Of a DNA stretch of 23,504 nucleotides, positions 2,235 to 11,520 are shown piece after piece. Where the stretch lies: positions 1-23,504 of IMG/VR virus record IMGVR_UViG_3300022725_000050; one strand, 5' to 3'. The DNA comes from a virus. The position numbers were made by a program, and so were the translations under genes. Position 1 is the stretch's first letter, and each line of letters opens with the position of its first letter. The notes under the pieces were generated by a model that was given only the letters and a program-made list of their open reading frames with translations, was not told the DNA's origin and ran no database searches.

Positions 2235-2441
2235 TCACGAAGCTTCTGTCTCGGTTTCGGGACCGTGCTGCGCCACAACCTTGTCTGCCCGAAGCGCGCC
2301 CCCGGTCATGATTTCCAGTTCGCACTGCCTCCCGCGCGGCGGCACCGCGCCCCACTTCCACACGGAGCGACGATCAATGTTCAGCGCCTTCGCCAACTGC
2401 GAGACACCGCCGAAATGCCGGACTGCTTCCTCGGTGGTCAT
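2235..2441 (-). CDS. cro: Cro-type transcriptional repressor (P22 Cro-like)
   Basis: Encodes 68 residues. EEAVRHFGGVSQLAKALNI at 4-22 followed by DRRSVWKWG at 23-31 is the helix-turn-helix of P22 Cro-type proteins: a short helix, the GG-S-LAKAL turn, and a recognition helix ending in W-WG. The following segment with LEIMTGGALRADK is also typical of that family. It should bind the operators just upstream as a small early repressor that favours lytic growth. The ATG at 2441 has no clear Shine-Dalgarno sequence and lies about where transcription from the predicted PR would begin, so its mRNA may be leaderless. It is the first gene of the minus-strand early operon and is followed by a terminator. 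Confidence 0.9.
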   Translation of the reverse strand: MTTEEAVRHFGGVSQLAKALNIDRRSVWKWGAVPPRGRQCELEIMTGGALRADKVVAQHGPETETEAS

Positions 2442-2447
2442 GCGTAC

Positions 2448-2466
2448 TGTCTACCATGGGTAGACA
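2448..2466. promoter_or_regulatory. Operator O1
   Basis: TGTCTACCATGGGTAGACA is an inverted repeat with perfect 8-bp arms (TGTCTACC and GGTAGACA) around a three-base centre. It lies seven bases upstream of cro and shares its half-site with three further sites. It is the best of the four and the likely strongest binding site for Cro and a cognate repressor. Confidence 0.8.
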
Positions 2467-2477
2467 CGCACCGTCAA
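2448..2477 (-). promoter_or_regulatory. Predicted PR-like promoter of cro
   Basis: On the minus strand TTGACG (2477-2472) fits a -35 element with five of six consensus bases. TAGACA (2453-2448), 18 bases further on, is a weak -10. The elements are covered by operators O2 and O1 respectively, as expected for a repressed phage early promoter. Transcription would begin at about 2441, the first base of cro. The weak -10 keeps confidence moderate. Confidence 0.45.
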
Positions 2478-2489
2478 CCATCGGTGACA
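2472..2489. promoter_or_regulatory. Operator O2
   Basis: CGTCAACCATCGGTGACA is a degenerate copy of the O1 palindrome. Its right half GGTGACA is identical to that of O4. The shared ACCAT core lies exactly 24 bp from that in O1. It covers the predicted -35 of PR. Confidence 0.65.
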
Positions 2490-2495
2490 GGCGCG

Positions 2496-2513
2496 CCACT
2501 ACCATGGCGAACA
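2496..2513. promoter_or_regulatory. Operator O3 (weak)
   Basis: The left half matches the O1 series (CTACCATGG at 2499-2507) and the ACCAT core lies exactly 24 bp from that in O2; the right half is poor. It abuts the ATG at 2513 that opens the CI-like stub. This mirrors lambda OR3 beside cI. Confidence 0.45.
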
Positions 2514-2563
2514 TGACCATCGGCAACCGCCTCAAACAGCTTCTGGCAGAAACAGGGAAAACC
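2513..2563 (+). pseudogene. Remnant of a CI-type repressor gene (first ~17 codons)
   Basis: The ATG at 2513 begins MTIGNRLKQLLAETGKT, which resembles the first helix of many CI/Xre-type repressors. It starts where cI would start: directly after the operator row, divergent from cro. The rest of a helix-turn-helix and a dimerisation or peptidase domain are missing, and none of the three forward frames after 2563 resembles one. The frame instead stays open through operator O4 into the small membrane protein, so a 103-residue in-frame fusion ending at 2824 could be made. An internal deletion of cI is the simplest reading. A short genuine peptide cannot be excluded. Confidence 0.5.
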
Positions 2564-2570
2564 CACATGG

Positions 2571-2598
2571 TTGACATTCCGCCCCAACTGTCTACCAT
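2571..2598 (+). promoter_or_regulatory. Predicted PL-like promoter of the plus-strand operon
   Basis: A perfect -35 TTGACA (2571-2576) is followed after 16 bases by TACCAT (2593-2598), which matches four of six -10 positions. Operator O4 (2589-2606) covers the -10. Transcription would start at about 2605, just before the ATG at 2606 of the first gene, so that mRNA may be nearly leaderless. It would drive the whole run of coupled genes up to the integrase. Confidence 0.6.
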
Positions 2599-2606
2599 GG
2601 GTGACA
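2589..2606. promoter_or_regulatory. Operator O4 on the PL-like promoter
   Basis: TGTCTACCATGGGTGACA has a left half identical to that of O1 and a right half identical to that of O2. Sixteen consecutive bases (2587-2602) match those around O1 (2446-2461). It overlaps the -10 of the plus-strand promoter, so the same regulator should control both early operons. Confidence 0.7.
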
Positions 2607-2824
2607 TGCAACAGCACAGCCGCAAACGACTCGACCCGGAAACCATCGCCGCCGCCTGCCTCGCCGGCTTGCTGTGGATGATCGTGCTGGGCTTTGCGCA
2701 GACGGCGGATCGAGCCATTGAGTGGGTCACCGTCGCCGTGCTCGCGGTCATCGCCGCAGTGGGCACCGCCAGCGTCGCGTTTCTGGTGATCGACCACCTG
2801 CGCGCACCGGTTGACCGCCGATGA
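2606..2824 (+). CDS. Small two-helix membrane protein, first gene of the PL-like operon
   Basis: Encodes 72 residues. A charged N-terminus (MQQHSRKRLDPE) precedes a hydrophobic segment at about 14-31. A second lies at about 41-63, and the tail is short and basic. It is predicted to lie in the inner membrane with two spans. It is the first gene after the operator-covered promoter and overlaps the next gene by ATGA. Small membrane proteins made early from PL-type operons or during lysogeny often exclude superinfecting phage, which is a reasonable but unproven role. The start is uncertain: in-frame ATG codons lie upstream at 2570, 2597 and 2603, and the frame is open back to the CI-like stub at 2513. 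Confidence 0.6.
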   Translation: MQQHSRKRLDPETIAAACLAGLLWMIVLGFAQTADRAIEWVTVAVLAVIAAVGTASVAFLVIDHLRAPVDRR

Positions 2825-3153
2825 ACCCCCGGGATCTCATCAGCGAACTGCGCCGACCGGGCCTGTACCTCGCCCTGCGCACCCGCGCCGCCGCTGAACT
2901 CGAGCGCCTGGTCGGCGAATGCCGAACCCCGTGGATCACCGAACGCGCCCCCACCCCGGCCGATGCCGACGCCGACGGCCGCGTGTTCTACCTGCAACAC
3001 AACGGCCGCCAAGTCCTAGTGCACCGCGGCCCGGTCAACACCTGGCGCAAGCGCGACCGCGACATTGGCGGCCTGCGCACCGTCGCGTGGCTGCCCAGCC
3101 ATGAACTGATACCGGCCGACATTCGCAACGCAATGACATCGGGAGAGCAGTGA
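2821..3153 (+). CDS. Hypothetical early phage protein
   Basis: Encodes 110 residues. The ATG overlaps the preceding TGA (ATGA), and the gene's own stop overlaps the next start (TGATG). Residues 1-35 are helical with many Arg and Leu, and residues 50-80 (GRVFYLQHNGRQVLVHRGPV) look like beta strands. No membrane segment, signal peptide or known catalytic motif is visible, and the family was not recognised. Its place between the membrane protein and the DUF3102/GHKL pair makes it an accessory gene of the PL-like operon. GC content and codon use resemble the rest of the phage, unlike the two genes that follow. Confidence 0.7.
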   Translation: MNPRDLISELRRPGLYLALRTRAAAELERLVGECRTPWITERAPTPADADADGRVFYLQHNGRQVLVHRGPVNTWRKRDRDIGGLRTVAWLPSHELIPADIRNAMTSGEQ

Positions 3154-3788
3154 TGGGTCGCAAGGGCGGCAAGTTGGAAGTCCACGTGAATCCGAATCCA
3201 GTGGAGCGGTCCGACGAGCAGCGCATAGAGGAAACGGCGCAGCTCTGTCAGCAGTCCTTCCGCCAAGCGGTGAACGCCATCATGGCGTGCGGCGAGCACT
3301 TGGCTGCGCTCAAGGCGGCGCTGCCAGAGGGGAAAGGATGGCGGGCTGCATTCGGCGAGGATCGCGATGGGCCGGTCTCCGAGAACCCTTTTCCGTTCAG
3401 TCGTTCAACCGCGGATCAACTTATTCAGATTTTTCAGCGTTTTAATGTGGCTAGCATTGCTAGCCACATAGACCAAAAGCGCCTGCCGCCTTCTTGGACA
3501 ACTCTTTACGAGCTGTCTCGCCTAGACGACGAAACGCTTCAGCAGCACGCCGACGAAATCCATCCCGGCATCACGCGCAGGGAGGTGACGGCCATGCGCC
3601 CCAAATCCGCATCGCAGAAGAACCCCGCAGCGCAGAAGGTTTCGGAAAGCAACCTCGACAAAGCACACGATATCTACCTGCGGCTGCCGCCCGATCGATT
3701 GCTTCAGGAGATCGCCAACCTGCTGTCCGATTCCGGTTACAGCATCGAGGACCTGCGCCGCATCACGGAGGAATCGGACGATGAGTAA
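3153..3788 (+). CDS. DUF3102-like protein, partner of the GHKL ATPase
   Basis: Encodes 211 residues from ATG at 3153, with GGGAGAG six bases upstream; an in-frame GTG at 3150 is the alternative. Residues 35-60 (VNAIMACGEHLAALKAALPE) and FSRSTADQLIQIFQRF near 85-100, followed by LPPSWTTLYELSRLDDETL, match the pattern recalled for DUF3102 proteins of phages and plasmids. In those proteins a helical region is followed by a helix-turn-helix-like stretch; DNA binding is assumed, not shown. The last 60 residues are helical. The stop overlaps the start of the ATPase gene by eight bases, so the pair is made together. The gene is visibly AT-richer than its neighbours and contains a perfect inverted repeat, which suggests separate acquisition. 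Confidence 0.6.
   Translation: MGRKGGKLEVHVNPNPVERSDEQRIEETAQLCQQSFRQAVNAIMACGEHLAALKAALPEGKGWRAAFGEDRDGPVSENPFPFSRSTADQLIQIFQRFNVASIASHIDQKRLPPSWTTLYELSRLDDETLQQHADEIHPGITRREVTAMRPKSASQKNPAAQKVSESNLDKAHDIYLRLPPDRLLQEIANLLSDSGYSIEDLRRITEESDDE
3446..3468. repeat. Perfect inverted repeat inside the DUF3102-like gene
   Basis: Ten-base arms TGTGGCTAGC and GCTAGCCACA flank the three-base loop ATT with no mismatch. It is coding (the VASIASHI region). It could form a strong RNA hairpin in mid-gene, act as a protein-binding palindrome, or be chance. No run of T follows, so it is not a typical terminator. Confidence 0.6.
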
Positions 3789-5253
3789 GCTGACCCCGAA
3801 GATCGACATCATCCTTTCGATCATCCAGAACCAGCTTAGCTGGCCAGCGGCGCTGTCGGAGTTCGTGGACAACAGCCTTGGGCCGGATGCCGGCAATGCA
3901 ACCACGGTTGACATCACCATCGAGCGAGATTCGATCACGGTCGAAGATGACGGCGCCGGGTTCGAAGACATCAACGAATTGAACCAGCTCGGAGCGGGGC
4001 ACTCGCGACTGTCGAAGCGCGACATTGGGCTCTATGGCGTTGGATCAAAACAAGCGCAGCTCTGGATCGGGGCAAGAACGAAAGTCGACACGATCCACAA
4101 GGGTCTACGACACCGCCATGTCTTTGCCTGGCCACTGCGCCGCACACGGGATGGCGGGGTTTCGCTGACGAAGAACGCCGACTGGCTGGAACCCTACAAC
4201 GGCGTCGGATCAAAGTCACCGAAGGGAGCGGCGGGAACGCTGATCGTCGTCAACAGACTGCACCCCGGCCGCCCTCGACTGAACACGAGCGCGGTTGCGG
4301 AGCAGCTCGGACAAACCTATGCACCCGCCTTGATTCAGGGGCGGCGGATCCGATTGCACGATCAGCGCAGAAAATACGCGGCCCACATCGAAGTGGTCCC
4401 AGACCAGCCAAAGAAGCTTACGGACACGGGCACGTTCGAAGGCCAGCTTCGTGGTATGCCATACCGTTTGTTTGTGGGTCACATGGAGGATCGGGAGGCG
4501 CGACACAATCGAATGTTCATCTGCTTTGGCCATCGCGTCATCGTGGCCGAAACCAACCCGTGGAAGGATCAAGCGCTGCCTTCTCACTTCTACGGGGTGA
4601 TTCACCTGGACGACAAGTGGAAAAAATGCCTTTCGGCCAACAAGCTCGACATTGCATCGTACAAGGAAGAACTGTTGGAGCATGCACTAGAGAAGTGCAA
4701 ACACCTTGTCGAGCGTTACGACGAGTACGAAAAAGAGCTGAATATCGAGATATTTCTGGCAGACATGTCGGAACACATGGGACGCCACATGCGTCTGTTA
4801 CCAAAAACCGAAGGCGAATATGGAGCCGGTGAGCGAGTCCACACCGAACAGGAAGGTGGTAACGGACAGGGGGCGCGAGAAGCAAAGAGCCAGGACGGTG
4901 GAAACGATGCCGAAGAGCAGGAGTCACCAACTACACCGATCCGCCTGTTCCAGGAGAGCCTCGGCAACGAGAGTCACCGTGTTGTGGAGATTGAAGGAGA
5001 GTTTCGAGTTTCCCTGAACAGCGATCTTCCCTACGTTCGGGCGGCGTTCACACACCCATTCGAAGCATCTGCGATATGGGGTCTTGCCAGTGCGGCACTG
5101 AGCGACTACATGATCGCCAACCGCCACAAAATGGCCGAGGCATTTCTGGATCGAGTCTCTCCGTTTTCACAAATGCTCGCATTCTGGATCGGGAAGATGC
5201 CGGAAGAGTACGCCCCAAAATCCAAGCGCAGCTTCTTCGGAGGCGAGACATGA
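3781..5253 (+). CDS. GHKL-family ATPase (HSP90/MutL/MORC-like)
   Basis: Encodes 490 residues from ATG at 3781 with GGAGG eight bases upstream. The N-terminal ATP-binding fold is clear: N-box ALSEFVDNSLG at 24-34 with E27 as candidate catalytic base and N31 for Mg2+; G1 box DDGAGF at 56-61; G2 box GLYGVGSKQA at 83-92. A transducer-like region follows, with SANKLD near 283-288 where a conserved lysine would sit. An acidic, Gly/Gln-rich linker spans about 340-382, then a C-terminal domain of unknown type. There is no histidine-kinase phospho-acceptor region. GHKL ATPases of this MutL/MORC kind occur in prokaryotic restriction-linked and defence operons. Its tight pairing with the DUF3102-like gene suggests a two-protein module, but the function is unproven. 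Confidence 0.8.
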   Translation: MSKLTPKIDIILSIIQNQLSWPAALSEFVDNSLGPDAGNATTVDITIERDSITVEDDGAGFEDINELNQLGAGHSRLSKRDIGLYGVGSKQAQLWIGARTKVDTIHKGLRHRHVFAWPLRRTRDGGVSLTKNADWLEPYNGVGSKSPKGAAGTLIVVNRLHPGRPRLNTSAVAEQLGQTYAPALIQGRRIRLHDQRRKYAAHIEVVPDQPKKLTDTGTFEGQLRGMPYRLFVGHMEDREARHNRMFICFGHRVIVAETNPWKDQALPSHFYGVIHLDDKWKKCLSANKLDIASYKEELLEHALEKCKHLVERYDEYEKELNIEIFLADMSEHMGRHMRLLPKTEGEYGAGERVHTEQEGGNGQGAREAKSQDGGNDAEEQESPTTPIRLFQESLGNESHRVVEIEGEFRVSLNSDLPYVRAAFTHPFEASAIWGLASAALSDYMIANRHKMAEAFLDRVSPFSQMLAFWIGKMPEEYAPKSKRSFFGGET

Positions 5254-6073: not shown

Positions 6074-6369
6074 GCGTTTCGCTGAACATCGGCACCCGCG
6101 TGTGGCTGTGCTGGACGCCCAGCGAAAACGTGATCGGCTGCACGTGGCTCGGCGATCCCCGGTTGAAAACCGGAACAGTCATTGACGGGCCACTCGGCCC
6201 CGGCCGGCATGTCGGCACGCACTCCGGGACACTCTATGTCATTAACGGATACGTCTGGGTGGTGCAGATCGACAACGGCCACCAGGTGACGGTTTCCGAG
6301 AACCTGCTCCACCCCATCGACGACGGCGAACCGGCCACACACGAAAACGAGAAGGAGGCCACCCCATGA
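6070..6369 (+). CDS. Hypothetical small phage protein, beta-rich
   Basis: Encodes 99 residues and overlaps both neighbours by ATGA. The pattern of short strands and glycines (IGTRVWLCW, KTGTVIDGPLGPGRHVGTH, YVWVVQIDNGHQVTVSENLL) suggests a small beta-barrel, possibly SH3- or KOW-like, ending in an acidic tail. It could bind nucleic acid or protein, but this is a fold guess only. Early accessory gene of unknown role. Confidence 0.7.
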   Translation: MSVSLNIGTRVWLCWTPSENVIGCTWLGDPRLKTGTVIDGPLGPGRHVGTHSGTLYVINGYVWVVQIDNGHQVTVSENLLHPIDDGEPATHENEKEATP

Positions 6370-9299: not shown

Positions 9300-9397
9300 T
9301 GCCCATCGACTGGCGCAACTACGAGGGCAATGGCAGGCAGAAGCCACAGCCGAAGCGGCGCAAGAAAGCCGCGCCCCTGCCGCTGGGCAGGAGGTAG
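9299..9397 (+). CDS. 32-residue basic micro-protein
   Basis: The frame MPIDWRNYEGNGRQKPQPKR continues to a basic end and stops at TAG 9395-9397. Its ATG shares the last base of the preceding TGA (TGATG), and GGAGA lies seven bases upstream, so translation is plausible. It is strongly basic in the second half and could be a DNA-associated peptide. The AGGAGG near its end also serves as the ribosome site of the excisionase gene. Conservation is needed to confirm it. Confidence 0.5.
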   Translation: MPIDWRNYEGNGRQKPQPKRRKKAAPLPLGRR

Positions 9398-9401
9398 CGC
9401 G

Positions 9402-9689
9402 GTGATCTATCCTTGCCGCTGGGTCAGGGTGAAGCGCGCGGCCGAGCTGCGCGGGGAGAGCGAGGACGCGATCCGGGCCCGGATCCGCGATGGCGTGTGG
9501 GTGGATGGCAGGGAGTGGCGGCACAACCCGCAGGGGCGGGTCGAGATCAACATGGAGGCGGTGGACGGATGGGTAGAGACGGATCAGGCGTCAGGCCAGC
9601 CAGCACCAGCACGATCGAAACCGCGTTCACGTCCCAGGGCGTCCGGTCCCGCCCGCGAATCCGGCTCAAGCCCAGCCCCGCTAACCTGA
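9402..9689 (+). CDS. xis: Excisionase (Xis-like)
   Basis: Encodes 95 residues from a GTG at 9402 preceded by AGGAGG. The domain VRVKRAAELRGESEDAIRAR then DGVWVDGREWRHNPQGRVEI and DGWVE is the small winged helix of phage excisionases (pattern AAEL-G-sEdAIR-kI--GVWl-G--W...PdGri-In---ve-WVe). The last 35 residues are a Ser/Pro/Arg-rich tail. It directs the integrase toward prophage excision at attL and attR. It overlaps the integrase gene by 121 bases in a different frame, which links their expression. Confidence 0.85.
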   Translation: MIYPCRWVRVKRAAELRGESEDAIRARIRDGVWVDGREWRHNPQGRVEINMEAVDGWVETDQASGQPAPARSKPRSRPRASGPARESGSSPAPLT

Positions 9690-10750
9690 AACGCGCCGAG
9701 CGGCACCTGGCCGCGATCCACGACGCGATCGAGCGCGGCACCTTCGACCCGCTGGTCACCTTCCCGGACTACCCGAAATCCGCCCTGTTCGCCGAGCGCA
9801 AGGGCGACATCGAGACCGTCGGCGAATACCTCGAGCGCTGGGTCGAGGACCGCCGGCCGGAACTGGCGGCCTCCACCTGGAAGGACTACCGCAAGATCGT
9901 GCACCGCGTGCTGATCCCGGCCTTCGGCGATCACCGCCTGTCGGATCTGCGCAAGAGCCACACCCGGGAATGGGCAAACCAGCAGGACGTGTCCGTCAAA
10001 CGCCTGCGCAACGTCCTTTCTATCCTCCGGGCCGCACTACAGGACGCCGTCGACGACGAAGTGATCGACAGCAACCCGCTCTACGGCTGGACCCCGCAAC
10101 GCCGCGGCCCCGGCAAGCGCCGGCCCGACCACATCGACCCGTTCGACACCGACGAACTCCAGGCCATCATCGCCGCCGCCGGCGAGCCAGCCGGCAACGC
10201 CATCGAGTTCTCCGTCTGGACCGGACTGCGCCCCTCGGAACTGATCGCGCTGATGTGGGACGACATCGACTGGCGGCGCAACAAAGCCCACATCTGCCGC
10301 GGCCAGACCTACGCCGCCGAAGCCCCGGAAGACACCAAGACCCGCGCGGCCGAGCGCGAGATCGACCTCCTGCCCCCGGCCGTCGCCGCCCTCAAGCGCC
10401 AGCGCGCCTGGTCACAGATGCACCCGAGCGGCTTCGTGTTCCTGTACCCGTTCAACGGCGAACCCTTCACCGGCGATCAGCAACTGCGCACCGGCGTATT
10501 CCGCCCCGCCTGCCGGCGCGCCAAGGTCCGCTACCGCTACCCGTACCAGCTCCGCCACACCTTCGCCAGCATGATGCTCTCCGCCGGCGAGCCGATCCCC
10601 TGGGTCGCGGCCATGATGGGCCACACCGACCCGACCGTGACGATGCGCGTCTACTACCGATTCCTGCCCGAAGGCACCCCGGATGCGGGGGCAAAGGCGA
10701 TGGAGAAGTTCGGCGGGAAAGGCGAGAAAAAGGGAACCGGGTCGCTGTAA
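9569..10750 (+). CDS. int: Tyrosine site-specific integrase
   Basis: Encodes 393 residues. The ATG at 9569 follows GGAGG and gives the expected N-terminus of integrases with a DUF3596 arm-binding domain (residues 5-70, including LKPSPANLKRAERHL and ERGTFDPLVTFPDYP). A core-binding SAM-like domain spans about 80-175. The catalytic domain holds R221 (WTGLRPSEL), K257 (EDTKTR), R329 in YQLRHTF, H352 in MMGHTD and the nucleophile Y362 or Y363 in RVYYRF. The usual first His of the HxxR box is Tyr (Y326), seen in some members of this family. It catalyses recombination between attP and the tRNA attB. The gene ends 23 bases before the attP core, the standard position. Confidence 0.95.
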   Translation: MGRDGSGVRPASTSTIETAFTSQGVRSRPRIRLKPSPANLKRAERHLAAIHDAIERGTFDPLVTFPDYPKSALFAERKGDIETVGEYLERWVEDRRPELAASTWKDYRKIVHRVLIPAFGDHRLSDLRKSHTREWANQQDVSVKRLRNVLSILRAALQDAVDDEVIDSNPLYGWTPQRRGPGKRRPDHIDPFDTDELQAIIAAAGEPAGNAIEFSVWTGLRPSELIALMWDDIDWRRNKAHICRGQTYAAEAPEDTKTRAAEREIDLLPPAVAALKRQRAWSQMHPSGFVFLYPFNGEPFTGDQQLRTGVFRPACRRAKVRYRYPYQLRHTFASMMLSAGEPIPWVAAMMGHTDPTVTMRVYYRFLPEGTPDAGAKAMEKFGGKGEKKGTGSL

Positions 10751-10773
10751 CCCGCACTGCGCCGCGATCAATC

Positions 10774-10801
10774 GAGGGTTCGAATCCCTCCCTCTCCGCC
10801 A
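10774..10801 (+). other. attP core: 3' end of a tRNA, probably tRNA-Ser
   Basis: GAGGG-TTCGAAT-CCCTC forms a perfect T-arm (10774-10790). It is followed by a seven-base 3' acceptor strand CCTCTCC (10791-10797), a discriminator G (10798) and CCA (10799-10801). Nothing else of a tRNA precedes it, because the integrase gene ends at 10750. Discriminator G and the CCTCTCC strand fit tRNA-Ser. Integration here would rebuild the 3' end of the host tRNA gene. Phage genes on both sides make it attP rather than attL or attR. Confidence 0.85.
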
Positions 10802-10901
10802 TATACCCGTTGTGTAATCAGGCACTTACCGTGTGGAGGTTGCGCCGGAGTGGCGCTGGAATGGCTGGATTTGGCTGGGGAAAGGCAAGGTAATGACAGC
10901 C
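10802..10901. other. Non-coding attP arm region
   Basis: No gene is seen between the attP core and the Rz1 stop. The stretch carries three loose copies of TGG-CTGG (10851-10859, 10862-10868, 10872-10878), which could be arm-type sites for integrase or Xis. Transcription converges here from integrase (plus) and lysis genes (minus), yet no stem-loop with a T run was found. Confidence 0.35.
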
Positions 10902-11198: not shown

Positions 11199-11520
11199 TC
11201 CATGCCTCCATGCCCTCGGGATCCAGGCAGATTTCGGACCCGGATTCGCTCGCGGCGTACCGCTCGACGATCCGTTCTCGCTCTCGCAGGTCGGCGCGCA
11301 GCTTCTCTACCGTGTCCAGATGCGCACGTGCGCGCACAGAGGCGCGTTCTAGGGCGTCCTGCATCCTCGCCTCGGCTTGGGCTGTGGCTTCCAGTACGGC
11401 TTCTGTGCGGGCTTCTGCGGCGCTGGCGGCGTAGTGGTATCGGCCTGTGAAGAAAGCGATCACGGCCACCAGCAGGATCATCACCAGCCGGATCGCGTAG
11501 GGGAGGAGTTTGGCCCACAT
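11188..11520 (-). CDS. Inner-membrane spanin (Rz-like)
   Basis: Encodes 110 residues. The ATG at 11520 shares TGATG with the preceding stop; an in-frame GTG at 11523 is the alternative. An N-terminal membrane anchor spans about residues 8-25 (YAIRLVMILLVAVIAFF). A long periplasmic coiled coil, rich in Ala, Glu and Arg, follows to about residue 90. This is the usual layout of an i-spanin. Together with the adjacent Rz1-like lipoprotein it completes a two-component spanin after holin and endolysin. Its coding DNA includes the palindromic 17-mer also found at 1194. Confidence 0.8.
   Translation of the reverse strand: MWAKLLPYAIRLVMILLVAVIAFFTGRYHYAASAAEARTEAVLEATAQAEARMQDALERASVRARAHLDTVEKLRADLRERERIVERYAASESGSEICLDPEGMEAWNAL

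Follow-up and report, generated by a model that had tools for sequence, protein, structure and literature searches.

The question raised by this locus is how a phage with the operators, Cro and genes for integration expected in a lambda-like temperate phage comes to be without a recognizable repressor gene. The window analysed, 23,504 bp in length, is the whole of the virus record (G+C 65.7%), the ends of which are classed as linear, and all of the results are based on this one metagenomic assembly of a fragment. From left to right the minus strand encodes an O-like replication initiation protein (190–1179; phrog_1032, E 2.2e-20), a CII-like protein (1532–2179) and Cro (2235–2441), after which there are early genes in the rightward orientation, the gene for a DNA cytosine methylase, xis, an integrase gene ending at 10750, and attP. 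The genes to the right of attP are leftward and include those for the tail fibre, central tail protein J, the tape measure and the neck. No terminase, portal or head genes were seen in the 23.5 kb record and the genome is therefore taken to be incomplete.

Some other sequences in the window merit mention. The repeat TGTCGGGTGGCTGGTGTCGT, at 786–805 and 809–828, 23 bp apart, is inside the replication protein gene, and the two copies are possible lambda-type origin iterons. The sequence GCGCACGTGCGCGCACA is also present twice, 10 kb apart, at 1194–1210 upstream of the replication gene and at 11322–11338 to the right of attP. At 3150–5253 in the early operon, the gene for a 212-aa protein of unassigned function overlaps the start of that for a 490-aa HATPase_c_3 (MORC/Hsp90-like) protein. 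There is a faint resemblance to ATPases of restriction or anti-phage systems (BbrUII/HgiDII, MzaB), and the two could be a defence cargo pair; PADLOC gave no match for the pair.

Lambda operators are 17 bp in length with a spacing of about 24 bp. When each 17-mer of the window was scored over both arms of GTC(N)ACC-3 bp-GGT(N)GAC, which has 12 key bases, only O1, O2 and O4 matched at 12 out of 12 in the 23.5 kb, the next best site having 10, and all three fall in a 158 bp span that brackets the site of the missing gene. O1 (GTCTACCATGGGTAGAC, 2449–2465) is a perfect 7-3-7 palindrome overlapping the -10 region of the cro promoter. O2 (GTCAACCATCGGTGACA, 2473–2489), 24 bp from O1, overlaps TTGACG, the minus-strand -35 of the same promoter. 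O4 (GTCTACCATGGGTGACA, 2590–2606), in the OL position, shares the exact 16-mer ACTGTCTACCATGGGT with O1, covers the -10 of a PL-like promoter and touches the ATG at 2606. The remaining site, O3 (CACTACCATGGCGAACA, 2497–2513), is 24 bp from O2 and weak, matching at 7 of the 12 bases. It overlaps a TACCAT -10 sequence and the ATG of the cI remnant described below, which is the PRM position, and, apart from an ACCATGG core in the exact 24 bp register, resembles the consensus poorly. There are 1,383 places in the window that reach a score of 7 and, by PSSM, a shuffled window would be expected to contain about 59 sites that score as well or better. Because such scores are common, it is only the exact 24 bp register (about 0.3% per position) that favours O3.

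The initial annotation had described a complete array of palindromic sites here. Its ACCAT cores at 2453, 2477 and 2501 are indeed exactly 24 bp apart, and its fourth site does lie over a promoter, although at 2590–2606 (ACCAT core at 2594) and not at 2589. With regard to symmetry, the description holds for O1, while one half of both O2 and O4 is a base short (GTC-ACC for GTC-N-ACC) and O3 is weak. Two strong OR sites and one strong OL site are thus present, but to call the array complete overstates the third OR site. As in lambda, there is an operator set between cro and the divergent cI start and a second set, here one full site only, at PL beyond cI. The distance from O3 to O4 is 76 bp, where a gene of about 0.5–0.7 kb would stand. 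A right half-site, CATGGTTGACAT, at 2566–2577 is 30 bp before O4 and may be nothing other than the -35 box; as an operator cut by a deletion it would fit poorly, its spacing to O4 being 30–31 bp against 24–25 bp elsewhere. Cro (and CI) would be expected to bind O1 to O4.

The cro gene is intact and encodes a 68-aa lytic repressor of the P22_Cro family (Pfam P22_Cro, 2.1e-18, model positions 1–59 of 60). Its score of 66.3 bits against a curated cut-off of 30.2 places it within the family, and it is 40–50% identical to phage Cro proteins. As had been proposed, it faces the operators, on the minus strand from 2441 to 2235. The cro promoter, as read from the sequence, is TTGACG-18-TAGACA on the minus strand, ending 6 nt before the cro ATG at 2441. 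On the plus strand, TTGACA (2571–2576)-16-TACCAT (2593–2598), under O4, is the only promoter-like site in 2150–2850 (0.1 in shuffles), with an ATG following at 2606. The 17 bp module CTACCATGGCGAACATG (2499–2515), which precedes and includes the ATG at 2513, is 82% identical to CTACCATGGGTGACATG at 2592–2608, and is without a good -35, as expected for PRM. The starts at 2441, 2513 and 2606 are all inside operator/promoter modules, with a -10-like hexamer 6–7 nt before the ATG. None of the three has a Shine-Dalgarno sequence, which is present at cII, the ATPase gene and int, and it is therefore likely that these starts give leaderless mRNAs. Leaderless cI and cro mRNAs have been shown for the related PY54 switch (PMC4488713). 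The ORF at 2606–2824 (plus strand), the first early gene behind PL, probably also has a leaderless start; it encodes a 72-aa membrane-type protein with no significant family match and is in frame with the cI remnant.

The ATG at 2513 appears to begin the remnant of cI, with the first 17 codons (MTIGNRLKQLLAETGKT, 2513–2563, plus strand) of a CI-type repressor remaining and the rest missing. Using a PSSM built from 13 CI N-termini, this ATG (with an in-frame upstream start at 2504) ranks second among the 1,926 start codons on both strands. In six frames, the phage regulator profile phrog_8 has a single match in the window, at 2480–2563, ending at codon 17, and it is the sole match to the remnant peptide among 38,880 PHROGs, at profile positions 68–91. 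True CI starts fall in the same register, with residue 1 of yong1 at position 72 and residue 6 of P22 c2 at position 77. The E-values for phrog_8 are modest, at 0.001 in a one-record search, 0.012 in the library scan and 0.24 for the stretch from 2504 to 2593, and so the identification rests on position together with similarity; Pfam gave no match to the short peptide. The ATG is 71 bp from the cro start, while cI in relatives is mostly 74–111 bp from it. The similarity to repressors ends at 2563 and the half-operator/-35 element begins at 2566, from which the junction left by the deletion, with the cI remnant on one side and the PL region on the other, would be at 2561–2569.

The reading frame from 2513 runs on into the membrane-type protein and has no helix-turn-helix (HTH), in agreement with the earlier view that only an ATG without such a motif exists between the third and fourth sites. 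That no other repressor-like gene is visible also proved correct, since six-frame searches across the window with the HTH_3, Peptidase_S24, Phage_CI_repr, HTH_19, phrog_3 and phrog_4 profiles gave no match; the location of a repressor elsewhere within the window was rejected by these searches. What this fragment has in place of the functional CI repressor gene of a lambda-like phage is therefore the 17 codons.

In other phages a repressor is usual at this location. A divergent HTH repressor adjoins a related Cro in 16 of 19 records, with start-to-start distances of 80 bp in P22, 81 bp in both N15 and yong1, and 108 bp in BUCT566; in H4907 it is 111 bp, with a different protein in the Cro position. 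A full cI is present between two operator sets in N15, the annotated operators of which are to either side of the repressor gene, in BUCT566, where the operator repeats at 3038, 3060, 3083 and 3956 are on both sides of cI, in PotUPM1, where cI is between OL repeats at 1932/1957 and OR repeats at 2894/2943, and in H4907, with far-side repeats at 6117 and 6142. The comparison with related phages suggested by the initial annotation thus shows a full cI between the operator sets of four phages of such a layout, although none of these is a close relative.

P22 and lambda have cro facing cI, the PR/PRM/PL layout and, in lambda, the same operator length and spacing, but they have both a repressor gene (cI, c2) and an activator gene (cII, c1). 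The immB regions of N15, phiKO2 and PY54 share the P22_Cro-type Cro and three OR sites between the repressor gene and cro, with OL sites beyond the repressor gene in N15 and phiKO2 (PMC4488713, PMC4997575). These have a full repressor gene and are linear-plasmid prophages, whereas the window has int and attP. Pseudomonas phage PotUPM1 has the order cI, OR, cro position and CII-like gene, this last being a homologue of the broken gene of the window, and has OL repeats beyond cI; its cI and CII-like genes are intact, and neither its operator sequence nor its cro-position protein is alike. Halomonas phage vB_HmeY_H4907 has the order cro, OR, cI, OL, early genes, methylase and integrase, with an integrase 48% identical to that of the window, but it carries a full S24-type cI and a different operator sequence.

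There are three records, CGphi29, ct3Oc712 and L002, in which related Cro genes are without a divergent repressor alongside, which would mean that the lack of a cI next to cro can be a settled condition. In Salicola phage CGphi29 (4827–4954 of the locus) and in ct3Oc712 (4877–4962), the P22_Cro-type gene faces a Sak4/AAA gene. Unlike the window, these two have a different gene opposite cro and no cI start is left.

In lambda, CII-type proteins switch on cI. In the window, the CII-like profile phrog_4834 matches 2134–1571 on the minus strand (profile positions 5–189 of 198, E 4.7e-36) across one in-frame TAG at 1918–1916, so that in place of an intact CII-type activator there is an apparent pseudogene (1532–2179). 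At this position, which is in a V-x-R motif, no stop interrupts the homologues of PotUPM1, Vibrio phage MAR and phiHAP-1. Recoding of TAG was rejected as a reason for the interruption, since the cII-like gene and the neck gene themselves end in TAG, which is therefore a stop here. It could be that the TAG is a single-base sequencing error. The broken cII-like gene is otherwise separate support for the decay of lysogeny control, and its stop together with the loss of cI would be what relaxed selection on lysogeny gives.

The int, xis and attP named previously look intact, as does Cro. The tyrosine integrase gene (9569–10750, plus strand; phrog_1, 8.8e-71) is open, with the recombinase motifs GLRPSE, RHTFAS, MGH and VYY, and its product is 48% identical to the integrases of both JBD68 and H4907. 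It is preceded by a putative excisionase gene (9330–9689, plus strand; DUF1233, 0.0025, below the curated cut-off), homologues of which adjoin an integrase in 81 loci. The attP core (10773–10802, plus strand) resembles the 3' end of a tRNA and matches, at 30 of 30 positions, the tRNA-like 3' end that adjoins a related integrase gene in a contig from a betaproteobacterium; 26–28 bp of this core recur at the same place in other loci. Because the record reads from the integrase through attP into phage genes, this DNA is not integrated at the attP site, which fits lytic growth and fits an induced prophage too.

Separate searches of viral_contigs with Cro, the 2504–2824 frame, the integrase, the ATPase and tail protein J revealed no close relative with cI, nor did exact patterns taken from O4, from the start of the remnant and from the PL region match anything. 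There is likewise no close relative in the phage collection, where nucleotide matches are from the methyltransferase only, and distant blastn against phages and plasmids gave chance matches only. Cro had no match in genome_contigs, nor in 369 genomes of one class at 1e-6, a search that had no positive control and says little.

Taken together, the window probably represents a clear-type derivative, of natural origin, of a temperate phage resembling lambda and P22, in which cI was lost between two retained operator sets. The internal deletion proposed in the initial annotation is the best reading of the 16 out of 19 neighbouring repressors, the four-phage layout, the score of the remnant CI N-terminus and the broken cII-like gene. 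The ancestral order would have been replication, cII and cro, leftward from OR, with cI, OL/PL, early genes, xis, int and attP to the right. The deletion would have begun near codon 18 of cI and ended immediately ahead of the PL promoter, with the cII-like gene gaining its stop before or after this. In lytic growth, Cro bound to OR and OL would damp PR and PL. Without CI, PR and PL would not be shut in a lysogen, so that integration, if any, would be followed by lytic expression and infection would become lytic despite int, xis and attP. Since the operators are unchanged, the immunity of the parent should still work against this phage, as a clear-type and not an operator-virulent mutant, and a lysogen of the parent would block it. 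It is thus probably unable to hold lysogeny while still sensitive to the immunity of its parent, and looks like a wild temperate phage that recently lost dormancy.

Against loss of the repressor are the modest statistics of the remnant (PHROG E 0.012–0.24 depending on the stretch given, and no Pfam match), the single assembly, for which no relative is close enough to show an intact parent, and the three records in which Cro is without a neighbouring divergent repressor. It is unlikely that the population has cI and that its absence comes from assembly, by the joining of the two sides of a variable cI or by the choice of a minor variant with a deletion. Immunity genes tend to be among the regions in which related phages vary most, and this is one metagenomic record with ends classed as linear, but the two flanks have the order, strand and spacing that would be expected, and the stop in cII would be left unexplained. 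The only exact repeat of at least 16 bases in the region is the O1/O4 16-mer, which is not at the junction, and so repeat collapse does not explain the absence of cI. It is quite unlikely, too, that lysogeny is kept, with the short form as the normal state of the lineage and a repressor that is encoded in the unsequenced part, is not of the HTH type or comes from the host. The incomplete genome, in the missing part of which a repressor could sit, the intact integrase and attP, and the phages having a P22_Cro gene without an adjacent repressor would all allow this. The failure of all six repressor profiles in the window, the retained CI-like start, which has a promoter where PRM would be, and the broken cII-like gene argue against it.

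The possibility that the 17 codons are just the start of a membrane-protein frame, cI having been lost long ago or never present, draws on the frame that is open from 2513 to 2824 and on the shortness of the similarity to CI. It is very improbable given the PSSM rank, the match of phrog_8 alone and at the remnant only, the distance from the cro start, close to that typical of cI, and the promoter that the ATG at 2606 has of its own. Integration regulated without a CI of its own, with Cro alone or the repressor of a co-resident relative acting on OR and OL, would make this phage a dependent passenger of another prophage, which is considered highly unlikely.

Loss of the repressor remains the preferred explanation, and natural loss of this kind in derivatives of temperate phages is already known from a few cultured phages. 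D29 and MissWhite are repressor-deleted members of the L5 group, and the deletion has made D29 obligately lytic, yet it is excluded by StarStuff lysogens (PMC5712189, PMC6550527). Like these, the window would have lost its repressor gene from an otherwise temperate-type genome, D29 being from an integrating group and excluded by homotypic lysogens. Their immunity system differs, however, having no Cro and no palindromic operators, while in the window the 5' 17 codons remain and cII is also broken. The repressor gene of the window is broken while the operators and integration genes persist, and no close relative of any kind, such as a temperate one with an intact repressor, is known from the viral_contigs, phages, plasmids or genome_contigs.

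The window is therefore a candidate case of repressor loss in an uncultured lambda-like phage, in which cI would be deleted and cII interrupted by a stop, with no damage to the operators, Cro, int and xis. If true, it would capture a phage in the course of changing from temperate to lytic life, and this phage would be predicted to form clear plaques and to be blocked still by the immunity of its parent. It would also mean that, in metagenomes, the possession of an integrase does not by itself mark a phage reliably as temperate.
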